Origin: an uncultured Roseburia sp.
GTDB taxonomy: Bacteria; Bacillota; Clostridia; Lachnospirales; Lachnospiraceae
Direction: 5' to 3'
Assembly: GCA_947567625.1 (NCBI GenBank)
Contig: CANONN010000040.1
Coordinates: 1-32,301, forward strand
DNA: 32,301 nucleotides
The translations under genes and the position numbers were made by a program. Positions 23,110 through 32,113 of this stretch are shown one piece after another (positions within the stretch are counted from its first letter, which is position 1; every line of letters begins with the position of its first letter). The notes under the pieces are model-generated. The model was given only the letters and a program-made list of their open reading frames with translations, had not been told where the DNA came from and did not search any database.

Positions 23110-23454
23110 ATGGAGTCAAGAATCGTGGAACATCCGATACTCGGAGAAATTGAGAACGGAAGGACTGTGACATTTACCTGCGACGGCAGGGAGCTTACGG
23201 GCTATGAAGGAGAGCCGATTGCGGCCGCACTTAAGGCGGCAGGGCTGATGGTACACCGTTATACGCAAAAAGAGCATAAACCCCGCGGCGTATTCTGCGC
23301 AATCGGGCGGTGTACGGACTGTGTTATGGTAGTCGACGGGAAGGCGAATGTCAGAACCTGTGTAACGCCGCTGAAAGAGGGCATGGTCGTGCAGACCCAA
23401 TACGGTGTAGGCGTGGAGCCGTTCGACAGGCGCGAGGAAGGAGAGAACGCATGA
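23110..23454 (+). CDS. [2Fe-2S] small subunit of an amino acid/opine-type dehydrogenase (HcnA-like)
   Basis: The 114-residue protein is a ferredoxin-fold subunit with GRELTGYEGEPIAAALKAAG, then FCAIGRCTDCVMVVDGKANV, so the cluster ligands are C-x4-C-x2-C and a later Cys in RTCVTPL. This is the pattern of the small subunits of hydrogen cyanide synthase (HcnA), octopine/nopaline oxidase and D-hydroxyproline dehydrogenase. GAAGGAGAG precedes the ATG. Its stop overlaps the next start (ATGA), showing translational coupling with the FAD subunit. It is the first gene of a four-gene oxidoreductase operon. Confidence 0.9.
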   Translation: MESRIVEHPILGEIENGRTVTFTCDGRELTGYEGEPIAAALKAAGLMVHRYTQKEHKPRGVFCAIGRCTDCVMVVDGKANVRTCVTPLKEGMVVQTQYGVGVEPFDRREEGENA

Positions 23455-25034
23455 AAAGATATGATTTGATTGTAGTTGGCGCGGGTCCGTCCGGTTTATC
23501 CGCCGCGATCGAGGCGGCCAAAAGAGGTTTACGGACGGTTGTATTCGACGAGAACGAAAAACCCGGAGGACAGTTGTTTAAACAGATACATAAATTTTTT
23601 GGTTCCAGAGAGCACAGGGCCAAAATTCGGGGTTATGTGATCGGACAGCAGCTTTTAGAGGAGGCCGACAGCCTTGGCGTTGAGGTAAGGTTAAACGCGA
23701 CGGTCATAGGGCTGTATCAGGATAAAGAGGTTGTGGTAAAGCTTGCCGACGAAGTAGTGCACTGTAAGGGGGACGCCATCATCATTGCAACCGGAGCGGC
23801 AGAGAATATGGTGACATTCGAGGGATGGACGCTGCCCGGCGTCATCGGCGCCGGAGCGGCGCAGACGATGATGAACCTGCACGGCATAAAACCCGGGCAG
23901 AGGGTCTTGATGCTCGGCAGCGGCAATGTGGGATTAGTGGTGAGCTTCCAGCTGCTGCAATGCGGTTGTGAGGTCGTAGCGCTCGTCGATGCGGCGCCAA
24001 AAATCGGCGGCTATGGCGTCCATGCTGCCAAAATTGCCAGAACGGGCGTTCCGTTCTATTTGTCGCACACCATTGTGCGGGCAGAGGGTGACGACTGCGT
24101 GACCGGGGTGACGATCGCCAAGGTGGACGAGCATTTTCAGTTCATCCCGGGAACGGAAAAGAAATTTGAGGTCGATACGATATGTCTCGCCGTCGGGCTT
24201 TCCCCGATGTCGCAGCTGTTAAAAATGGCCGGATGCAAAATGGAGGATAATCCCAGGCGCGGCGGTCAGGTGCCAATCTGTGATGCGTATGGGAGAACTT
24301 CTCTGGCAGGCGTATTTGTCGCCGGCGACGTCTCCGGGATTGAGGAGGCGAGCTCTGCAATGATAGAGGGAAGAATGGCCGGGATTGCTGCGTGCGAATA
24401 TCTGGGTTTTATGGAGAAAGAGGAGCTTGCTGCACAGCTTGCATCGCAAGAGCGCGCGCTTGACGGACTGCGGCAGGGAATGTTCGCACCGCAAAACAGG
24501 GGGAGGGCCGTTGCGGAGACAGAGGAGGGAATCGCTGTTTCCGCCAGCCTGCTGCGGCATGGATACATAAGCGATGATGAGATCGAAAGATTTCCCGGTA
24601 TCACGCACAGAGCCGGCGTTCATCCGGTGATGGAGTGTACACAGAATATCCCTTGCAATCCATGTCAGGATGCGTGCCCGAAAGGGTGTATCAGCATCGG
24701 CGCCAATATCACTTCGCTGCCGGTTGTCGTGGAGAGCGCGGAATGTATGAACTGTGGCATGTGCGTTGCCTCCTGTTCCGGGCAGGCAATTTTTCTTGTG
24801 GAGGAGGATTGTGGGGACGATACGGCAACGGTCACGCTGCCCTATGAATTTCTGCCGCTTCCCGCCGCCGGGACGAAAGGAGATGCGCTCGGCCGCAGCG
24901 GGCAAAGGGTCTGTGAGGCCGAGGTCGTGGGCGTCAGAAGTGCGAAAGCCTTTGATAAGACCAATCTGCTCACGATCAAGGTGCCAAAAGAATACGCGAT
25001 GAAAGCGAGATTTTTTCGATCGATGCACAACTGA
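23451..25034 (+). CDS. FAD/NAD(P)-binding oxidoreductase subunit with C-terminal 2[4Fe-4S] ferredoxin
   Basis: The 527-residue product is the large subunit (HcnB/OoxA/PDH-alpha type). It starts with VVGAGPSGLSAAIEAAKRGL (FAD), has GGQLFKQIHKFFG and a second Rossmann site VLMLGSGNVGLVVSFQLLQ, then GVFVAGDVSGIEEASSAMIE. A cysteine-rich tail follows: C396, C402, C405, C409, C413 and C432, C435, C438, C442 (CMNCGMCVASCSG), consistent with two [4Fe-4S] clusters. Typical HcnB-like proteins instead have a short BFD-like C-terminus, which here is a separate gene. ATG 23451 overlaps the upstream stop. The FAD-to-cluster layout suggests electrons leave to ferredoxin or a similar acceptor rather than oxygen, fitting an anaerobe. 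Confidence 0.92.
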   Translation: MKRYDLIVVGAGPSGLSAAIEAAKRGLRTVVFDENEKPGGQLFKQIHKFFGSREHRAKIRGYVIGQQLLEEADSLGVEVRLNATVIGLYQDKEVVVKLADEVVHCKGDAIIIATGAAENMVTFEGWTLPGVIGAGAAQTMMNLHGIKPGQRVLMLGSGNVGLVVSFQLLQCGCEVVALVDAAPKIGGYGVHAAKIARTGVPFYLSHTIVRAEGDDCVTGVTIAKVDEHFQFIPGTEKKFEVDTICLAVGLSPMSQLLKMAGCKMEDNPRRGGQVPICDAYGRTSLAGVFVAGDVSGIEEASSAMIEGRMAGIAACEYLGFMEKEELAAQLASQERALDGLRQGMFAPQNRGRAVAETEEGIAVSASLLRHGYISDDEIERFPGITHRAGVHPVMECTQNIPCNPCQDACPKGCISIGANITSLPVVVESAECMNCGMCVASCSGQAIFLVEEDCGDDTATVTLPYEFLPLPAAGTKGDALGRSGQRVCEAEVVGVRSAKAFDKTNLLTIKVPKEYAMKARFFRSMHN

Positions 25035-25090
25035 CTATAAGGAACAAAATGTGAGATAGGAAAAGACGGAACTCAAAATAGGAGGCTGAT

Positions 25091-25429
25091 ATGAGTAATG
25101 TAATTGACAGGTCAAGGGAGATCGGGCCATATATCCCGGCCCCGGACGACGATAGAATCATCTGCCGGTGCGAGGAAGTTACGCAGGGCGAAATCCGCAG
25201 GGCGGTACATGAAGGTATGTGGACCATGACTGAGATCAGAAGATATCTGCGGACCGGAATGGGGCTATGCCAGGGACAGACCTGCGGAAAGCTCGTAAAG
25301 GGCATTGTTGCGCGGGAACTCGGCGTTCCCATGGCGGCGCTGGAACCCGCCACGTCGCGGGTCCCGATGCGTCCGATCGAAATGCGTGTGTTTGCAAACG
25401 AGGCAAAGGAGGGCGGGGAACATGAGTAA
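25091..25429 (+). CDS. BFD-like [2Fe-2S]-binding protein
   Basis: The 112-residue protein contains a bacterioferritin-associated-ferredoxin-type domain: IICRCEEVTQGEIRRAVHEG, and then GLCQGQTCGKLV, giving C-x-C followed about 33 residues later by C-x4-C. A Pro/Met-rich tail follows (MAALEPATSRVPMRPIEMRV). The same domain is found fused to the FAD subunit in HcnB/OoxA proteins; here it is encoded separately. AGGAG precedes the ATG. Its stop overlaps the next gene's start by 8 bp, so all these subunits are probably made together. Confidence 0.9.
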   Translation: MSNVIDRSREIGPYIPAPDDDRIICRCEEVTQGEIRRAVHEGMWTMTEIRRYLRTGMGLCQGQTCGKLVKGIVARELGVPMAALEPATSRVPMRPIEMRVFANEAKEGGEHE

Positions 25430-26549
25430 TTGTGCAGAGGTTGTGATCATTGGCGGCGGTATCATTGGCTGTGCCACGGCATATTATCTGGCCAAAAGAG
25501 GCGTTGACGTCATTGTGCTTGAGGGCAGCGACCACATCGGCAACGGCGGCTCCTCCAGAAACGGCGGCGGCGTGCGCCAGTCGGGGCGCGACCCAAGGGA
25601 ATTGCCGCTGGTGATGTACGGAATCAAAAACTTCTGGCCCACGCTGTCAGAGGAATTGGAAGCAGACTGCGAATATCATCAGGACGGCAATCTGAGATTG
25701 GGAAAATCCGAGAAACACAGACAGATTTTGGAGGGGTTGACCGAGCGTGCCCAAAAAGCCGGTCTCGATGTCACAATGATCGACGGGGACGAAGTGCGCC
25801 GCATCAATCCCTATCTGTCCGGGGAAGTCACCTGTGCCAGCTGGTGTCCGACCGACGGCCACGCGAATCCGCTGACGACGACGCTGGGATATTATAAGAC
25901 GGCGAGAAAGCTTGGCGTTCGCTTTATTACCGGTGAGAACGTCACAGAGCTTCGCAAAAGAAAAGGGAGACTTGTTGAAGTGATCACGGAAAATAACAGA
26001 TACGGCGCAGGGAGCGTCGTGCTTGCCGCCGGGCTTGGCAGCAGGGAGCTCGCGGCAACGGTCGGCATTGACATCCCGATGCAGCCGGCCATGCTCGAAG
26101 CGCTTGTGACCGAGGCGCAGCCACCTATGTTTGATCAGATGCTTGGAACGGCCGAGGCCGACTTCTACGGGCATCAGACGAAACACGGCTCCTTTGTATT
26201 CGGCGGTTCCTCGGGACTGGAGGGATTTACCAGAGACAACGGCACGCCGATCTGTTATAGTAAGACGGCGCCCTGTATCTGCCGGGGCATCATGAAATAT
26301 TTTCCGCATCTGGCCGACGCCAAAATTGTGCGCACCTGGGCAGGGTGGATGGACAAATGCGCCGACGGCGTGCCTGTACTGGGAACGGTCGAGGAGGTGC
26401 CGGGCCTGATACTCGCGGCCGGCTTTACCGGCCACGGTTTTGGCATTGCCCCGGCGGTGGGAGACCAGCTGGCGGAGCTGATTGTGACGGGTAACACGAC
26501 GGTGGATATTTCGGCGTTGCATTATGACCGCTTTCGCGCTAAAATATAG
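25422..26549 (+). CDS. FAD-dependent amino acid/amine dehydrogenase subunit (DadA/HcnC-like)
   Basis: The 375-residue product is the catalytic subunit of the DAO/DadA type, which oxidises C-N bonds of amino acids, N-methyl amino acids, imino acids or opines. FAD binding is at VVIIGGGIIGCATAYYLAKR (5-25). Other family segments are GGSSRNGGGVRQSGRDPREL, GSVVLAAGLGSRELAATVGI, and RTWAGWMDKCADGVPVLGT followed by AAGFTGHGFGIAPAVG at the C-terminus. ATG 25422 overlaps the BFD-like gene; the longer open frame upstream lies inside that gene and is not used. Substrate cannot be read from sequence; the nearby permease and ornithine-cyclodeaminase-type gene suggest amino acid or opine use. Confidence 0.92.
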   Translation: MSNCAEVVIIGGGIIGCATAYYLAKRGVDVIVLEGSDHIGNGGSSRNGGGVRQSGRDPRELPLVMYGIKNFWPTLSEELEADCEYHQDGNLRLGKSEKHRQILEGLTERAQKAGLDVTMIDGDEVRRINPYLSGEVTCASWCPTDGHANPLTTTLGYYKTARKLGVRFITGENVTELRKRKGRLVEVITENNRYGAGSVVLAAGLGSRELAATVGIDIPMQPAMLEALVTEAQPPMFDQMLGTAEADFYGHQTKHGSFVFGGSSGLEGFTRDNGTPICYSKTAPCICRGIMKYFPHLADAKIVRTWAGWMDKCADGVPVLGTVEEVPGLILAAGFTGHGFGIAPAVGDQLAELIVTGNTTVDISALHYDRFRAKI

Positions 26550-26568
26550 CCGTAAAGGTTAGGGGCTT

Positions 26569-27429
26569 ATGATATGGCAAAAAGATAGCTTAAAGGCGAC
26601 ACAGCCGTTTTATGTTTTAAATACCGATAAGTTTTTACAGGAAATCTATTTCAGGCAGGGTATCTCACATTTCTATTCGTTTCGGACGGCAAAGAGGATG
26701 ACAATATCCACTGTCCCGGACGGATGTATCGACTTACTTTTTGTATATTACAGCGCAGGCATGAAAAGCTATGTCTGCGGGAGCGTGTTAAAATGCAGTC
26801 AAGTTGAGTGGGAAGGGCCCGCGGAGTTTTTTGGTGTGCGCTTTTTGCCCGGATTTCACCCGGCGGGCCTGCTCGTTACGCAGAGGGATTTGCTGGAGAG
26901 CAGGTTTCCTCTGGAACGTTACCTGCAAAAACAGGAATTGATTCGCCTTCTTGCCCCGCAGACAGACTTTTGTCAGAGAATCCGCACTTTTTTGCGAGAA
27001 TACACCAAAATGGAAGAGAAGCGGGAGGCTCCCTATGGCAAAAAGGAGCTGGTCGCCTCCGTGAAATCCCTGGTCTATCAGTCCGGCGGCCTGATAAGAA
27101 TAGGAGAAATCGAGAATCGGACGGGCTACACGGCGCGCTATATTAACAAAGTCTTTCTGGAGGAGATGGGATTTGGGCCAAAGACGTTCTGTAAAATTAT
27201 ACAGTTTCAGCGTGCGCTGGAGTATCTCAACTATGGTGTGCCCGCCAATATGACGGATGCCGCCGTTGCGCTGGGGTATTATGACCAGCCGCAGTTTATC
27301 CGCGACTTTAAAGAGTATGCCGGTATGACGCCGGCCAAATATCTGCGTCTGGTTCACGATCAGACTTACCGGGCGCGGGTCAGGGATATGGGCTTTTTCC
27401 TAGATTCCTCGGCCTGTGAGGGTAAATGA
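26569..27429 (+). CDS. AraC family transcriptional regulator (likely of the oxidoreductase operon)
   Basis: The 286-residue protein begins with a DUF6597-like sensing part (ISTVPDGCIDLLFVYYSAGM, GPAEFFGVRFLPGFHPAGL) and ends in an AraC helix-turn-helix (RIGEIENRTGYTARYINKVF, FKEYAGMTPAKYLRL). It starts 19 bp after the DadA-like gene on the same strand, so it probably sits in that operon and controls it. AGGGG precedes the ATG by six bases. The ligand is unknown. After its stop, 27430-27672 carries palindromic sequence and no gene. Confidence 0.92.
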   Translation: MIWQKDSLKATQPFYVLNTDKFLQEIYFRQGISHFYSFRTAKRMTISTVPDGCIDLLFVYYSAGMKSYVCGSVLKCSQVEWEGPAEFFGVRFLPGFHPAGLLVTQRDLLESRFPLERYLQKQELIRLLAPQTDFCQRIRTFLREYTKMEEKREAPYGKKELVASVKSLVYQSGGLIRIGEIENRTGYTARYINKVFLEEMGFGPKTFCKIIQFQRALEYLNYGVPANMTDAAVALGYYDQPQFIRDFKEYAGMTPAKYLRLVHDQTYRARVRDMGFFLDSSACEGK

Positions 27430-27495
27430 CACACTGCGCCGTATACGTGCCTGTGCACAAAAGTCCCAGCCGCAGCCAATCGTGCCAAATAGCCG

Positions 27496-27572
27496 GGAAT
27501 CCGTCCCTTTGCCGCAGGCAAACTTTAAATGAGCGGGATTCCGTAACAGTGAAGCCCGGCTCAACTGTTACG
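27496..27572 (+). repeat. Palindromic region including a 9-bp hairpin related to the dispersed element
   Basis: CGTAACAGT (27542-27550) pairs perfectly with ACTGTTACG (27564-27572). The stem and loop start (GTAACAGTGAAGCC) repeat almost exactly the middle block of the element at 13806-13890. GGAATCC (27496-27502) and GGATTCC (27537-27543) give a second inverted repeat around it. Confidence 0.65.
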
Positions 27573-27672
27573 CGCAGCTAGCAGCCAGTAATGTCAAATA
27601 AACAAAGAATGTAGCGCATTAAGTTGACGGTGCGTGAATGTTTCGTCAATGCCGGAAAGGACAGGGAGAAAA

Positions 27673-28503
27673 ATGCCGGAAATGCCGGAAGTGGAAACCA
27701 TAAAGCGTGTGTTAGAGCCGCAGCTGAAAGGGCTTATGATTACTAAGGTTACGTTGAAACGTCCTGAAATTGCGGCATACCCCGACGCAGAGCGATTTTG
27801 TGCACGGTTGGGAGGTCAGACAATTTCCCACATGGAGCGCAGAGGCAAATATTTGATGATTTGGCTCGAAAGCCAAGACCGTATCATTTTGCATCTGCGC
27901 ATGACGGGCTGCCTGCTGCTTGCGCCGGCAGATATCCCGGAGGAGAAACATACACATATTATTTTTCGTCTCAGCGACGGCAGAGAGCTGCGGTTTTCAG
28001 ATACCCGGCGATTTGGGCGTTTCTGGCTGCTACAAAAGGACGAGGCGGATACATACAGCGGAGCTGGCAAATTGGGCATAGAGCCGTTTGACACAAAGCT
28101 GACGGGCTCCTATCTATATAGTCATTTAGGCAGCCGGAAAAAAGCGGTGAAGGGGTGCCTTTTAGATCAGAGTATCATCGCGGGAATCGGAAATATTTAT
28201 GCCGACGAGATTTTGTTCGCGGCGGGAATTTATCCGGCGCGTCCGGCAAACAGCCTTAATCTTTGCGAATGGGAGAAACTTGCCGCAGTGATACCCGAAC
28301 GTCTTGTCTATTTTATTGAAAAGAACGAGATAACGCCGGAGGAATATCTAAAATCAAAGGGGCGGGATTACCGCAATACGCCCTTTTTGCAGATATATGG
28401 CCATGAGGGCAGTCCCTGTCCAGTCTGCGAAACGGTATTTCGCCGTATTGTCGTTGGCGGCAGGAGCAGCGTCTACTGTCCGGCATGCCAGAAAGACGTA
28501 TGA
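27673..28503 (+). CDS. mutM: Formamidopyrimidine-DNA glycosylase
   Basis: The 276-residue Fpg/MutM removes oxidised purines and cuts the strand. The start MPEMPEVETI exposes the catalytic proline P2 and E3 after methionine removal, so ATG 27673 is used rather than the in-frame start at 27634. RRGKYLMIW contains the conserved lysine; QSIIAGIGNIYADEILF is the helix-two-turn-helix. The zinc finger is C-x2-C (CPVCETVF) with YCPACQKDV at the C-terminus. GGGAG precedes the start. It interrupts the amino-acid utilisation block and is unlikely to take part in it. A terminator and a copy of the dispersed hairpin element follow. Confidence 0.97.
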   Translation: MPEMPEVETIKRVLEPQLKGLMITKVTLKRPEIAAYPDAERFCARLGGQTISHMERRGKYLMIWLESQDRIILHLRMTGCLLLAPADIPEEKHTHIIFRLSDGRELRFSDTRRFGRFWLLQKDEADTYSGAGKLGIEPFDTKLTGSYLYSHLGSRKKAVKGCLLDQSIIAGIGNIYADEILFAAGIYPARPANSLNLCEWEKLAAVIPERLVYFIEKNEITPEEYLKSKGRDYRNTPFLQIYGHEGSPCPVCETVFRRIVVGGRSSVYCPACQKDV

Positions 28504-28561
28504 CCGATTTATACAAGTTTTTTATGAAAAAGTAGATATAATGATGAATCATAAGTAAGAC

Positions 28562-28597
28562 AAAGGCGTCTGACAGGAATGTCGGGCGCTTTTTTTG
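28562..28597 (+). terminator. Terminator after mutM
   Basis: GGCGTCTGACA pairs with TGTCGGGCGCT (with G-U pairs) around GGAA, followed by seven T. Confidence 0.8.
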
Positions 28598-28680
28598 TCT
28601 TATAGGAAAGACTGTTTTGCTTTAAAATACGAAAGCATATATCGTTCCTATAAGATAAAAACCCTCCAGGAGGATTCGCA
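28598..28680 (+). repeat. Dispersed hairpin element, copy 2
   Basis: TCTTATAGGAA (28598-28608) pairs perfectly with TTCCTATAAGA (28645-28655). Then come GATAAAAACC, CCTCC-A-GGAGG and TTCGCAC. It parallels the element at 18772 over about 80 bp in stem, loop and tail, in the same orientation relative to the upstream terminator. Confidence 0.85.
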
Positions 28681-28757
28681 CACTTTTTTATCCGCAGCGC
28701 AGAAAATGATCTTCTGCCCGCGTCACTCGGCATAAATGTTTCGGAAGGAGAAGAAAA

Positions 28758-29105
28758 ATGGGATATTCTAAAATTGAAGTGGTGACATCCATGAACAGGC
28801 TCAGCAGCCTGAAATCAGCGTTGAGTAAACTTGGCGTCAGCGGTATGACGGTTGTACAGGCGATCGGCTGCGGCGTACAGAAAGGTACCTTTGAGTATGA
28901 GGCAGAAGAAAACGAGGAGATGGAGCTTTTGCCCAAGCAGATTATCAGTCTTGTGGTTGAGGATGAAAAAATTGAGGATGTTGTGGAGACGGTGAAAAAG
29001 GAGCTGTATACCGGGCATATCGGCGACGGAAAAATCTTTATCGCCCCGCTCTCGAATGTGATACGGGTGCGGACCGGCGAGGAGGGCAGCGATGCTTTAA
29101 GTTAA
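28758..29105 (+). CDS. PII (GlnB/GlnK) family signal protein without the T-loop tyrosine
   Basis: The 115-residue protein shows the PII fold: KIEVVTSMNRLSSLKSALSK, LGVSGMTVVQAIGCGVQKG, LLPKQIISLVVEDEKIEDVV, and TGHIGDGKIFIAPLSNVIRV plus RTGEEGSDA. The T loop between QKG and LPK has the normal 14 residues (TFEYEAEENEEMEL), but the position of the uridylylated tyrosine (Y51 in E. coli) reads Glu, and the usual RGAEY stretch is acidic. It should therefore bind ATP/ADP and perhaps 2-oxoglutarate without being uridylylated there. GGAG precedes the ATG. It lies 33 bp before an APC amino-acid permease, not an AmtB ammonium channel, so it may gate that permease; this is an inference. Confidence 0.9.
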   Translation: MGYSKIEVVTSMNRLSSLKSALSKLGVSGMTVVQAIGCGVQKGTFEYEAEENEEMELLPKQIISLVVEDEKIEDVVETVKKELYTGHIGDGKIFIAPLSNVIRVRTGEEGSDALS

Positions 29106-29138
29106 TATGCGCATGGATACGCGGAAAGCGAGGATATT

Positions 29139-30581
29139 ATGGAAGAGAAAAAATTGGGTCTGCCCAGTGTGATAGCGACCGGCATGGGACTGATTGTGGC
29201 GACGAGCTGCCTGATGTCCCTTGGGCAGGGCGCCGGTGCGATCGGAGTCAGCTTTATCATAGCGATGGTCGTCGCGTGCATTGTAAATATTTTTACCGCC
29301 CTTTCCCTGGCGGAATTAAACGCGCTGATGCCGAATCTGACAGGAGGTCTGGCACAGTACACGCTGGCCTGCATGGGGCCGTTTGCCTCAATCGTGTCTA
29401 TGGTTGGCGGATATCTGGTCTGCAATGCCATCACGGGGAGCGTAGAGTGCGCCATGTTTGGGAATGCCATCAATTCCGTGTTCGATACGGGGCTGCCATC
29501 GAGTGTATTTTGCATTATCTTGCTGGTTGTGCTGATGATCGCAAATTTGAACGGCATTGACATGTTTGCCAAAATTCAGGACATTGTGGCATATGGGCTG
29601 ATTATTTCCCTGATTGTGATGGGAGTAATCGGAATTGTGGGAGCCGGGACAGGAGAGCAGGTAACGCAGCCGTGGGTGCTGTCTTTTCAGCCGGCGGATG
29701 TTTTTTCCATGGTAGGGCTGGCATTTTTCCTGTTTTTGGGGTGTGAATTTATCATCCCGATCGCGAAAGATGTGAAGAATCCGCGCAGAAATGTGCCGCT
29801 GGGGATGGTGCTCAGTCTGGTGGTCGTCTGCCTGATGCAGATTATTGTCGTGCTCGGTATGCACAATTATACGGAATGGGGGGCGCTCGCGGCGGACAAC
29901 TCTCCGCATATTTTTTACGGAACGGCGCTTCTGGGCAAATTTGGCGCGCTGTGGATGATTCTGGTATCGATTTTTGCCGTTGTCAGTACGGTAAACTCCG
30001 TGATCAGCTCCCTGTCGTACATCTGCGCGGGCATGGCCAAGATCAATATGCTCCCGTCCGTTTTCCAAAAAAGAAATAAAAAAGGGGCTCCCTACGTCGG
30101 AATCCTGATGATCGGCGGCGTGATGATTGTGATAAACGCCACCGGGCTTTCCACATCAGACCAGTTATCGTTTTTGATCTTGGTGGGGTGCGTGTTCTGG
30201 ATGATCGCCTACATTATATCCAATATCAACGTGCTGATTTTGCGAAAACGTATGGCGAGGGCGCCCAGAACCTTTAAGATTCCGTTCGGCCCGCTGTTTC
30301 CGATACTCGGGATACTGGGAAATGCCTTTATGGTGTGGAACATCGACGGAAATATCGAGGTAAGGCTCGGCATCTATAAAATATGCTTAACGATTTTTCT
30401 TCTGTTGGCGGTGTACGCGGTGATCTGGATTAAGAAGGTCATGAAACGCAGGCTCTTTGCGCCCGTTCCCCTGCACGAGGTCATGGCGATGGAAAACGAT
30501 CTCTATGGGGTGATACATAACAGGAAAAAGCGCAGCCGTGAGAACAGCGGACAAAACGTGAAGAGTGGTAAAAGAGCATGA
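29139..30581 (+). CDS. APC family amino acid permease
   Basis: The 480-residue membrane protein has about twelve helices and the APC opening (LGLPSVIATGMGLIVATSCL, with small residues in helix 1), then ALSLAELNALMPNLTGGLAQ, FLFLGCEFIIPIAKDVKNPR and SSLSYICAGMAKINMLPSVF. It likely imports an amino acid or related compound by proton or sodium coupling. The C-terminal tail is basic (RKKRSREN and GKRA). GAGG precedes the start. It is probably co-transcribed with the upstream PII-type gene and, across a 35-bp tandem-repeat region, may be linked to the downstream ornithine-cyclodeaminase-family gene. Substrate is not determined. Confidence 0.93.
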   Translation: MEEKKLGLPSVIATGMGLIVATSCLMSLGQGAGAIGVSFIIAMVVACIVNIFTALSLAELNALMPNLTGGLAQYTLACMGPFASIVSMVGGYLVCNAITGSVECAMFGNAINSVFDTGLPSSVFCIILLVVLMIANLNGIDMFAKIQDIVAYGLIISLIVMGVIGIVGAGTGEQVTQPWVLSFQPADVFSMVGLAFFLFLGCEFIIPIAKDVKNPRRNVPLGMVLSLVVVCLMQIIVVLGMHNYTEWGALAADNSPHIFYGTALLGKFGALWMILVSIFAVVSTVNSVISSLSYICAGMAKINMLPSVFQKRNKKGAPYVGILMIGGVMIVINATGLSTSDQLSFLILVGCVFWMIAYIISNINVLILRKRMARAPRTFKIPFGPLFPILGILGNAFMVWNIDGNIEVRLGIYKICLTIFLLLAVYAVIWIKKVMKRRLFAPVPLHEVMAMENDLYGVIHNRKKRSRENSGQNVKSGKRA

Positions 30582-30599
30582 GAAATCAGAATGAAGCGT

Positions 30600-30914
30600 G
30601 AGGCGAAAACCAAAAACGCGAGAGATCAAACGAAGAGGTGAAAACCAAAAACGCAAGAGATCAAATGATGAGGGATATACCAAAAATGAGAGAGATCAAA
30701 CGAAGAGGTGAAAGCCAAAAAGGCGAGAGGTCAAACGAAGAGGTGAAAACCAAAAACGCGAGAGATCAAACGAAGAGGTGAAAACCAAAAACGCGAGAGA
30801 TCAAACGAAGAGATGAAAACCAAAAACGCGAGAGATCAAACAATGAGGCGAAAACCAAAAACGCGAGAGATCAAATGATGAGGTGTATACCAAAAACGCG
30901 AGAGATCAAACGAC
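30600..30914 (+). repeat. Nine 35-bp tandem repeats between the permease and the ornithine-cyclodeaminase-like gene
   Basis: Units begin at 30600, 30635, 30670, 30705, 30740, 30775, 30810, 30845 and 30880, with an exact 35-bp period and a degenerate unit on each side. The consensus starts GAGGTGAAAACC and is about three-quarters purine, with hardly any T. Period 35 is not a multiple of three, and TGA occurs in the unit, so it is not coding. Each unit contains a Shine-Dalgarno-like GAGGTG, and the true ribosome site of the next gene (GAGAGGTGA) resembles it. It accounts for nearly all of the 386-bp gene-free gap. Confidence 0.95.
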
Positions 30915-30976
30915 ATGAAGTTAAAAAATGTGATATCAGAAAAAAGTGACAGCGAGCAAATAGAGAGGTGACACAT

Positions 30977-32113
30977 ATGGATTATCCAAGAATTGACATT
31001 TTATATTTGAGTGAGGAAGATATGATTGCGGCAGGCGTTTGTGACATGGAGGGCTGCGTGGAGGCGATGGAGGAACAATTTAAGCTCATGAAAATGGGCG
31101 ATTACCGCATGGGCGGAGCCAACGGGAACTCGCACGGCTGTATGGTGATGTTCCCGGAATCCTCCCCGTTCCCGCAAATGCCGGTGGACGGTCCCGACCG
31201 CAGATTCATGGCGATGCCGGCGTATCTTGGCGGCAGATTTGACATGACGGGTATGAAATGGTATGGTTCCAACGTGGCAAACAAAGAAAAAGGTCTGCCG
31301 CGCTCGATCTTAATGCTGATCTTAAACGATAAGGATACGGGAGCGCCGCTGGCGTTTATGTCCGCCAATATACTGTCGGCATACCGTACCGGGGCAGTTC
31401 CGGGCGTCGGTTTCAAATATTTTGCCGCTCAGGACGCAAAAACCATCGGCATTGTGGGGCCCGGCGTCATGAGTAAGACGGCGCTCGCCGCCGCTATGGT
31501 GGTCCGGCCGTCCCTTAAGACTGTGAAAGTAAAAGGGCGCGGCAAGGCTTCCCTGGAACACTTTATGGAACATGTGAAAGCATCTTATCCCGGCGTGGAA
31601 GTCTGTGCGGTGGATACCATAGAGGAGGCGGTGCGTGGGTCCGATATCGTGTCGGTGGCCACATCCTCCCCGACCGGAGACGCCAGCTTGTATCCGTATA
31701 TCGAGGAAGACTGGATAAAACCGGGGGCAGTCATTGAGACGACCGCGGCCCTGCGGTTTGATGACGACTTTTTAATCAACCGGGCGCGGACCGTGACGGA
31801 TAACATCAAGCTCTATGAAGCCTGGGAGGAGGAGATGAAGCCGGACGCATACAATACGATTCCGATACCGGCCGTCCGCGTGGAAGATCTGATAGCCGCG
31901 GGAAAGATGAAAACCGAACAGATTGATGATCTCGGCGATGTGCTGCTCGGCAATATTCCGGTGCACAGAAAAGAGGGGGAGGTTGTCATCTACTCTGTCG
32001 GCGGGATGCCGACGGAGGATGTGGCATGGGGAACCGTGATCTACCGCAATGCGCTGGAAAAGGGAATCGGCACAAAGCTAAACCTCTGGGAGAAGCCCAG
32101 GATGATAGTGTGA
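30977..32113 (+). CDS. Ornithine cyclodeaminase/mu-crystallin family enzyme
   Basis: The 378-residue protein has the family layout: INILYLSEED-type start (IDILYLSEEDMIAAGV), a substrate domain with RFMAMPAYLGG, MKWYGSN and KGLPRSILMLILND, then MSANILSAYRTGAVPGVGFK and a Rossmann motif TIGIVGPGVMSKTALAA near 155-170. Family members use NAD for ornithine-to-proline conversion, imine reduction or amino-acid dehydrogenation. Similar long clostridial sequences are sometimes labelled tyramine oxidase subunit B, a name without firm functional support. ATG 30977 is chosen because GAGAGGTGA ends five bases before it; GTG 30968 lies inside that site. It follows the permease across tandem repeats, and fits an ornithine/proline or opine pathway with the upstream dehydrogenase. 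Its stop codon is the first codon of a 55-bp hairpin repeat. Confidence 0.88.
   Translation: MDYPRIDILYLSEEDMIAAGVCDMEGCVEAMEEQFKLMKMGDYRMGGANGNSHGCMVMFPESSPFPQMPVDGPDRRFMAMPAYLGGRFDMTGMKWYGSNVANKEKGLPRSILMLILNDKDTGAPLAFMSANILSAYRTGAVPGVGFKYFAAQDAKTIGIVGPGVMSKTALAAAMVVRPSLKTVKVKGRGKASLEHFMEHVKASYPGVEVCAVDTIEEAVRGSDIVSVATSSPTGDASLYPYIEEDWIKPGAVIETTAALRFDDDFLINRARTVTDNIKLYEAWEEEMKPDAYNTIPIPAVRVEDLIAAGKMKTEQIDDLGDVLLGNIPVHRKEGEVVIYSVGGMPTEDVAWGTVIYRNALEKGIGTKLNLWEKPRMIV

Follow-up and report, generated by a model that had tools for sequence, protein, structure and literature searches.

We analysed a 32,301-nucleotide stretch of contig C40 (CANONN010000040.1) from the genome of an uncultured Roseburia sp. 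(GCA_947567625.1; 3.42 Mb in 110 contigs), referred to below as the window. It contains a cluster of genes for an iron-sulfur-rich dehydrogenase, a permease and an OCD-family oxidoreductase, which recurs in gut and rumen Lachnospiraceae and their kin and may be an anaerobic amine-catabolic operon. All of its genes lie on the + strand. The dehydrogenase genes come first: subunit A, a small [2Fe-2S] protein resembling HcnA and LhpF (23110..23454; Fer2_4, PF13510, 105.9 bits); subunit B, a FAD/NAD(P)-binding protein with a C-terminal dicluster [4Fe-4S] tail (23451..25034; Pyr_redox_2, PF07992, 129.8 bits); subunit C, a separate BFD-like [2Fe-2S] protein (25091..25429; Fer2_BFD, PF04324, 51.3 bits; SO_alpha_A3, PF17806, 42.7 bits); and subunit D, a DAO-family FAD subunit presumed to oxidise the substrate (25422..26549; PF01266, 249.9 bits). 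An AraC-family regulator follows (26569..27429; DUF6597 and HTH_18), and further downstream are a P-II nitrogen regulatory protein of the GlnB/GlnK type with an altered T-loop (28758..29105; PF00543, 88 bits), an amino acid/polyamine/organocation (APC) superfamily permease (29139..30581; AA_permease_2, PF13520, 112.3 bits), which reached no NCBIfam cut-off, and the OCD/mu-crystallin-family oxidoreductase, hereafter OCD (30968..32113; OCD_Mu_crystall, PF02423, 236.8 bits; NF004848, 579.1 bits). With the corrected starts that we used for B (23451) and D (25422), A and B overlap by 4 bases and C and D by 8, and 19 bases separate D from the AraC gene; alignment with relatives suggests that OCD starts at 30977. 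An earlier, sequence-only reading of this DNA had named the A, B, C, D, AraC, permease and OCD-family genes, and all were found on the + strand within 23110-32113; the P-II gene and an fpg/mutM gene in the same span had gone unmentioned.

In its subunits the dehydrogenase resembles the HcnABC, OoxAB and LhpBEF enzymes and the opine oxidases of Ti plasmids, with a Fer2 protein, a FAD/NAD subunit and a DAO subunit encoded together. In the OoxAB/LhpBEF/HcnABC group, however, the BFD domain is fused to the FAD subunit, whereas here it has its own gene (C, 25091-25429) and B bears the [4Fe-4S] tail. The sequence-only reading had proposed both of these departures, and both were borne out. Whole-length B matched no Fer4 family in Pfam at E ≤ 0.001, and the tail searched alone passed Fer4_7 narrowly (27.7 bits against a gathering threshold of 27). 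Nine tail cysteines (397, 403, 406, 410, 414, 433, 436, 439 and 443, counted from base 23448, with codons between about 24636 and 24776) are invariant in all 23 aligned B proteins; the first motif, C-x5-C-x2-C-x3-C, is non-canonical, with three extra residues, and the second is canonical. By these marks, and by its narrow pass of the Pfam dicluster test, the tail qualifies, at the level of sequence, as a ferredoxin-type 2[4Fe-4S] domain. A Rossmann motif of the NAD(P) type is likewise conserved in B (G157, G159, N160, V161, G162 and D181, invariant in the same 23 proteins). Because the tail and the Rossmann motif are both kept, several electron acceptors are in play: ferredoxin is a fair guess, and NAD(H), or a bifurcating use of ferredoxin and NAD(H), may serve as well. 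Amino-acid/imine couples are too positive for easy ferredoxin reduction. Overall, the earlier proposal of a DAO-type dehydrogenase system in a heteromeric, Fe-S-rich and apparently anaerobic form is supported.

The solved chain nearest to D was 1Y56_B (156.2 bits), listed as a sarcosine oxidase and presumably a proline dehydrogenase beta subunit. A 36-sequence tree united the clade of D and a second clade in one group (support 95/95), separate from two SoxB sequences, from 1Y56_B with the relatives L126 and L127, from Ti-plasmid oxidases with a Rhizobium homologue, and from proteobacterial single-chain oxidases. Its only opine-type oxidases came from a single Ti plasmid (L139) and a single Rhizobium (L140), and long branches (SolA, PuuB, DadA and one Ti sequence) leave the deep joins unsure. 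D likewise fell below the SoxB model TIGR01373 (157.8 bits, cut-off 529). On this sampling, membership of D in the opine oxidase clade is rejected by the tree. That reading had also proposed to place D by phylogeny, which the tree does for opine-type oxidases, SoxB and 1Y56_B; it holds no named HcnC, LhpB or Thermococcales PDH2 sequence. With the Thermococcales proline dehydrogenases PDH1 and PDH2 the cluster shares its nearest solved D relative, and two more distant relatives in the same order (L126:5256-6841 and L127:4818-6727), which group with 1Y56_B, encode the FAD and [4Fe-4S] parts of their dehydrogenases as separate genes; D itself is not in the 1Y56_B clade.

OCD passed a single NCBIfam model, NF004848 (cut-off 362 bits), which is labelled 'tyramine oxidase subunit B'. 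It missed the models for ornithine cyclodeaminase (NF005762, 57.8 bits against 350), for SbnB (166 against 326.9 bits) and for pyrroline-2-carboxylate reductases. Its nearest solved relative was 4M54 (111.7 bits), listed as a putative ornithine cyclodeaminase and taken by us to be SbnB, acting on an opine-like amino acid; a pyrroline-2-carboxylate reductase, 6T3E, was weaker kin (95.5 bits). The curated cut-off thus rejects an ornithine cyclodeaminase identity. Taken literally, the sequence-only reading placed an ornithine cyclodeaminase after an opine oxidase, and members of the same superfamilies do stand side by side here; with OCD this far below the cyclodeaminase cut-off and D apart from the Ti-plasmid oxidases, we disfavour this scheme and consider it very improbable.

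Conservation of the genes with one another is far above chance. Among 61 genomes (the source genome and 60 relatives), orthologues of D (at least 67% identity) and of OCD (at least 54%) are present in the same six; one further genome, G047, gives a weak match to OCD (31%). Across 392 genomes of the order, D occurs at 59% identity or more in 21, and OCD (E ≤ 1e-60) is found in 20 of these; the exception, G351, is a 73% complete genome with D near a contig end. Only 2 of the 371 genomes without a D orthologue have OCD (G342 and G225), which gives a Fisher p for co-occurrence of 2.6e-30, not corrected for relatedness. Of the 20 genomes that have both, 19 place D and OCD at most 4.5 kb apart, and G274 has them on different contigs. 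Gene content was counted in the best 80 of 389 confirmed stretches from named genomes, mostly of Lachnospiraceae and kin; of these 80 loci, 47 are well flanked (at least 9 kb before and at least 5 kb after D). Genes were assigned from open reading frames and BLAST, and overlapping small genes were missed (A and C of the window among them), so that absences are upper limits. The well-flanked loci hold B in all 47 cases, A in 45, OCD in 43, C in 42, P-II in 37, an AraC-type regulator in 27, an APC permease in 25, PotABCD-like transporter genes in 18 and a RidA-like gene in 4; an iron-type alcohol dehydrogenase occurs in 18, the same 18 that have Pot-type transporters. When the 33 poorly flanked loci are included, OCD was seen in 62 of 80. 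The tie between dehydrogenase, OCD gene and transporter on which the sequence-only reading relied was therefore not refuted.

The loci follow a few layouts. In the APC type the order is A-B-C-D-AraC-P-II-permease-OCD, with permutations; one such locus, L135, also carries a GABA-aminotransferase-like gene, below its cut-off. The Pot type, with polyamine-type ABC genes, reads P-II-PotA-B-C-D-OCD2-OCD-A-B-C-D-FeADH, FeADH being the iron-type alcohol dehydrogenase, and its transporter and alcohol dehydrogenase proteins mostly score under curated cut-offs. The Clostridium type reads OCD-A-B-C-D-Rid-AraC, and locus L160 of genome G429 reads A-B-C-D-AmtB-P-II-OCD-FeADH (AmtB, 391.2 bits). The transporter slot is thus held by the APC permease, by the PotABCD-like genes or, in L160, by AmtB before P-II and OCD. 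P-II genes of at least 50% identity stand directly before the APC permease in 30 of 30 cases and directly before PotA in 18 of 20 (e.g. L049:854-1222), with an unassigned same-strand gene next in the other two; P-II genes under 50% identity, such as those of L107 and L113, were left out of these counts. The P-II protein of the window shows the motifs QKG, LLPK, GDGKIF and RxRTGE, which are ATP/2-oxoglutarate motifs of P-II proteins, and reaches neither of two P-II equivalog cut-offs; its T-loop region looks altered, as in the APC type generally.

The two main transporter types bear on the question of which enzyme meets the imported compound. We compared 53 loci that have a typed transporter and in which B, D and OCD were read (30 of the APC type, window included, and 23 of the Pot type; 28 of 81 were left out). 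Mean identities within the APC type, within the Pot type and between types were 74.6, 76.2 and 55.0% for OCD, 77.2, 80.1 and 73.8% for D, and 76.5, 80.6 and 77.5% for B, while those for A were 74.0, 77.9 and 75.1% (47 loci) and those for C 79.1, 82.1 and 79.8% (46 loci). By transporter type, then, A, B and C show no difference, D a small shift and OCD a sharp one, and this divergence favours OCD as the enzyme that meets the imported compound. Within the APC type, mean OCD identity was 59.0% in the 12 loci whose permease is less than 60% identical to that of the window, against 78.7% in 25 others; across the same split D moved from 69.4 to 78.4% and B from 73.8 to 77.2%.

From gene content, conservation, exchanges in the transporter and OCD slots and the divergence pattern, we propose that OCD joins an imported amine to a 2-oxo acid and that ABCD oxidises the resulting N-alkyl amino acid to an aldehyde and an amino acid. 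We put this forward tentatively, with a confidence that falls somewhat short of even. The permease would import a small amine under the control of the co-encoded P-II protein, a probable sensor of 2-oxoglutarate and ATP. OCD would condense the amine with 2-oxoglutarate or pyruvate and reduce the imine with NAD(P)H to an opine-like N-alkyl amino acid. D, to judge from its family, would oxidise this secondary amine with its FAD, and electrons would pass by way of the [2Fe-2S] centres of A and C, the FAD of B and the two [4Fe-4S] clusters of B to ferredoxin or NAD(H), with no need for oxygen. The new imine would be hydrolysed to aldehyde and amino acid, by a Rid-family protein where the cluster has one; in Pot-type relatives the aldehyde, a suitable substrate for an iron-type alcohol dehydrogenase, would be removed by that enzyme. 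Imines produced by an amino acid oxidase are hydrolysed by RidA and Rid2 of Salmonella (PMC4433059). The net effect would be to move the amine nitrogen onto an amino acid without a pyridoxal phosphate-dependent transaminase, as in the N-methylglutamate pathway.

In that pathway, as described in PMC6237917, mgsABC and gmaS make N-methylglutamate from methylamine, and mgdABCD oxidise it to glutamate and formaldehyde. The order proposed here is alike, from an amine to an N-alkyl amino acid and, through a multi-subunit dehydrogenase, to an aldehyde and an amino acid. The cluster differs in having an OCD-family enzyme in place of the synthetase/synthase pair, a [4Fe-4S] tail on B, a D outside the SoxB clade, and no folate-binding (GcvT-like) domain in B or any other of the nine window proteins. 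One relative comes closer to the known pathway. Anaeromicropila populeti (G427) has two ABCD copies, L156 and L104, each with an APC permease and a Rid-family gene. The L156 copy has OCD; in the same slot L104 has GlnA-III-like, class II amidotransferase, GXGXG and FMN-GltB-like genes, which resemble gmaS and mgsABC. Homologues of this cassette have sarcosine-oxidase genes as neighbours: those for alpha, beta and delta in the part of Rhizobium etli p42e that we read, and all four, gamma included, in Sphingobium pSH1. If the L104 cassette makes an N-alkyl glutamate for ABCD, the OCD of the sister copy most simply does the equivalent job.

Other features agree with an amine substrate and with interchangeable supply units. 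In each of 24 aligned rows, among which L049 and L129 represent a single locus, PotD-like proteins keep 10 of the 13 spermidine-contact residues of E. coli PotD, with three changed (E171A, W255F, and Q327 to V, L or I). Genome G429, whose locus L106 has ABCD and no OCD nearby, holds four OCD genes elsewhere. Two stand beside further ABCD copies (L158 and L160); the others, in L157 and L159, accompany permease genes, and the 18-19 kb read there contained no ABCD. These lone pairs of OCD and permease look as exchangeable feeder units would.

OCD homologues were also found on plasmids, where 540 records matched and the best 23 of the 40 listed were 52.8-58.4% identical. We chose seven proteobacterial regions from those 40. 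In six (Shinella, Pantoea, Klebsiella, Acinetobacter, Aminobacter and Thioclava), OCD, a Rid-family gene and a single FAD-binding oxidoreductase stand in a row. Four of the six also have an APC permease, and in five a regulator of the AraC or another helix-turn-helix type lies close by. This cluster may correspond to the tyn genes of Pseudomonas putida U. It shares with the window the OCD family and, in most of these regions, a permease and a helix-turn-helix regulator; unlike ABCD, its oxidase is one chain with no Fe-S subunits annotated beside it. In Acinetobacter this chain resembles ThiO (139.9 bits, below cut-off), and in the tree the single-chain oxidases group loosely, by a long branch, with the gamma-glutamylputrescine oxidase PuuB (89/74). 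One OCD family is thus found with two unlike oxidases, one with Fe-S subunits and one without, as far as annotation and alignment tell. The seventh region, from Agrobacterium cucumeris (OCD 47%), is arranged differently, with DUF4147 and a glutamate-type dehydrogenase nearby. OCD genes of 42-47% identity next to DUF4147 and enolase-type genes, in L147:4249-8113 of this species and in L124:4940-8824 of another genome, may form a further sub-family with a different role.

The loose grouping with PuuB touches on a different reading, in which ABCD oxidises the imported amine directly, as an anaerobic amine dehydrogenase; OCD would then serve as an accessory subunit or hold the ammonia by turning a 2-oxo acid back into an amino acid. 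The NF004848 label points the same way, as do the amine-type transporters and iron-type alcohol dehydrogenases of relatives. We nevertheless think direct oxidation unlikely. The named solved chains nearest to D use amino acids or their N-methyl derivatives as substrates, and in our alignment two arginines of D are invariant (R54 and R306) and two nearly so (R58 and R61), which would suit a carboxylate. As for the label, the open-licence literature yielded neither the phrase 'tyramine oxidase subunit B' nor a paper pairing 'tyramine oxidase' with 'ornithine cyclodeaminase'.

A number of observations weigh against a route that starts with OCD. Some concern the route itself: SbnB runs in the cleaving direction; no match to a Rid or an iron-type alcohol dehydrogenase was found among the open reading frames of the window; and the partner oxidase on the Acinetobacter plasmid is 25% identical to D. 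The Rid protein of L104, the only one scored from an anaerobic locus, reached 45.1 against a cut-off of 106 and is 23% identical to a plasmid Rid. The synthase-like swap is a single case in a genome which retains an OCD copy with its other ABCD set, so that a clean replacement of OCD is rejected there. A search of 383 genomes of the order turned up the GXGXG gene in one, G293, where its 4.3 kb contig carries no ABCD. ABCD also lacks a nearby OCD in 4 of the 47 well-flanked loci (L056, L104, L106 and L118); one of these belongs to Acidaminococcus fermentans (L118), which has no OCD genome-wide at E ≤ 1e-20 and carries a sodium/glutamate-type symporter at the locus (65.6 bits).

The divergence pattern is open to question as well. 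Within the APC type, permease identity tracks D and OCD alike (pairwise Spearman 0.777 for D, 0.766 for OCD and 0.516 for B; 38 loci), and with OCD and D each corrected for the other, the partial correlations with the permease are 0.514 (OCD) and 0.541 (D). A smaller count of 34 loci, in which some OCD genes were omitted, gave 0.65 for D and 0.49 for OCD, and in L133 and L156 the permease has diverged while OCD is still 71-79% identical. Permease tracking therefore does not separate OCD from D within this type, and a claim that OCD alone follows the transporter is too strong; it holds between types only, where the jump in OCD could stem from replacement by a paralogue. Because D follows the permease as well as OCD does, we lowered slightly our estimates for the amine-first route and for its broader form given below, and raised that for the main alternative, in which D acts first. 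There ABCD would oxidise an imported opine, an N-substituted amino acid, a D-amino acid or a cyclic imino acid, and OCD would reduce the imine or 2-oxo product to an L-amino acid, as in the conversion of D-proline to pyrroline-2-carboxylate and on to L-proline. It is the closest tenable version of what the sequence-only reading had in mind.

The second clade of D bears on this alternative. It is 48-52% identical to D and occurs in 7 genomes of the order, none of which has OCD, and since it stands without OCD, D can by all appearances act without OCD. Five of its loci, from four genomes, comprise three with Opp/Nik-type ABC genes, one with polar-amino-acid-type ABC genes and one with no recognised transporter. 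ABC genes, an ArgE/DapE-type hydrolase and a creatininase-family gene near this clade suit N-substituted amino acids imported ready-made. The last two adjoin second-clade D in L120:5437-8611, where catabolism of N-substituted amino acids is possible. A D-first order also draws on the match of D to 1Y56_B, on the pyrroline-2-carboxylate reductases among the weaker kin of OCD, on the symporter of L118, and on a Ti plasmid, which pairs a heteromeric DAO oxidase with an ABC transporter and octopine/nopaline-dehydrogenase-family genes. On the other side, the gap between transporter types is far wider for OCD than for D, D lies outside both the 1Y56_B and the Ti-plasmid oxidase clades, Pot-type loci carry a spermidine-type binding protein, and OCD misses the pyrroline-2-carboxylate reductase cut-offs. 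We regard a D-first order as possible, if on the doubtful side. The amine-side and second-clade evidence alike would fit a D that oxidises N-substituted amino acids.

A broader form of the amine-first proposal can be drawn, which we offer as speculative and rather unlikely to hold as a whole. In this form, gut Clostridia would run a widespread and undescribed anaerobic 'opine shuttle', in which exchangeable pairs of transporter and OCD feed various amines, as N-alkyl amino acids, to one Fe-S dehydrogenase that releases aldehydes. P-II would gate the transporter by the level of the co-substrate 2-oxoglutarate, and the output would be [4Fe-4S]-linked and perhaps bifurcating. The parts belong to known families, and their combination, the P-II link and the spread in gut anaerobes appear undescribed; we found no description of the cluster among the titles and abstract openings that searches of the open-licence literature listed, which is no proof of absence.

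For the physiology of gut and rumen, biogenic amines such as tyramine, polyamines and methylated amines are important, and the familiar routes of amine oxidation use oxygen. If the proposal is right, anaerobes would have an unrecognised way to live on biogenic amines, many Lachnospiraceae would strip amines through an opine-like intermediate, and enzymes would be at hand for a function that has had none assigned. The 'tyramine oxidase subunit B' label would be tested as well, and the known P-II-linked transporters would be joined by amino acid permeases and Pot-type transporters. The module is open to experiment because some carriers are named strains and not metagenome bins, among them Absicoccus porci, Anaeromicropila populeti and Clostridium thailandense.

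Some minor features remain. In L125:6072-7208 a lone OCD (48%) adjoins an ATP-grasp gene amid apparent surface-polysaccharide genes, and perhaps makes an opine-like side group. In the window, a terminator-like stem of 14 pairs (28562..28593, + strand; a consensus match only) lies between fpg/mutM and the P-II gene; because of its position the cluster may be split here into two transcription units. Terminator-like stems number 15 in the region, against 10.2 (sd 3.1) in shuffled sequences. The fpg/mutM gene itself (27634..28503, + strand; the model matches from residue 14, which places the start near 27673) sits inside the cluster in this genome only, and is rejected as a component of the system, since none of the 80 relatives' loci carries fpg. 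It is the sole fpg match of the source genome.

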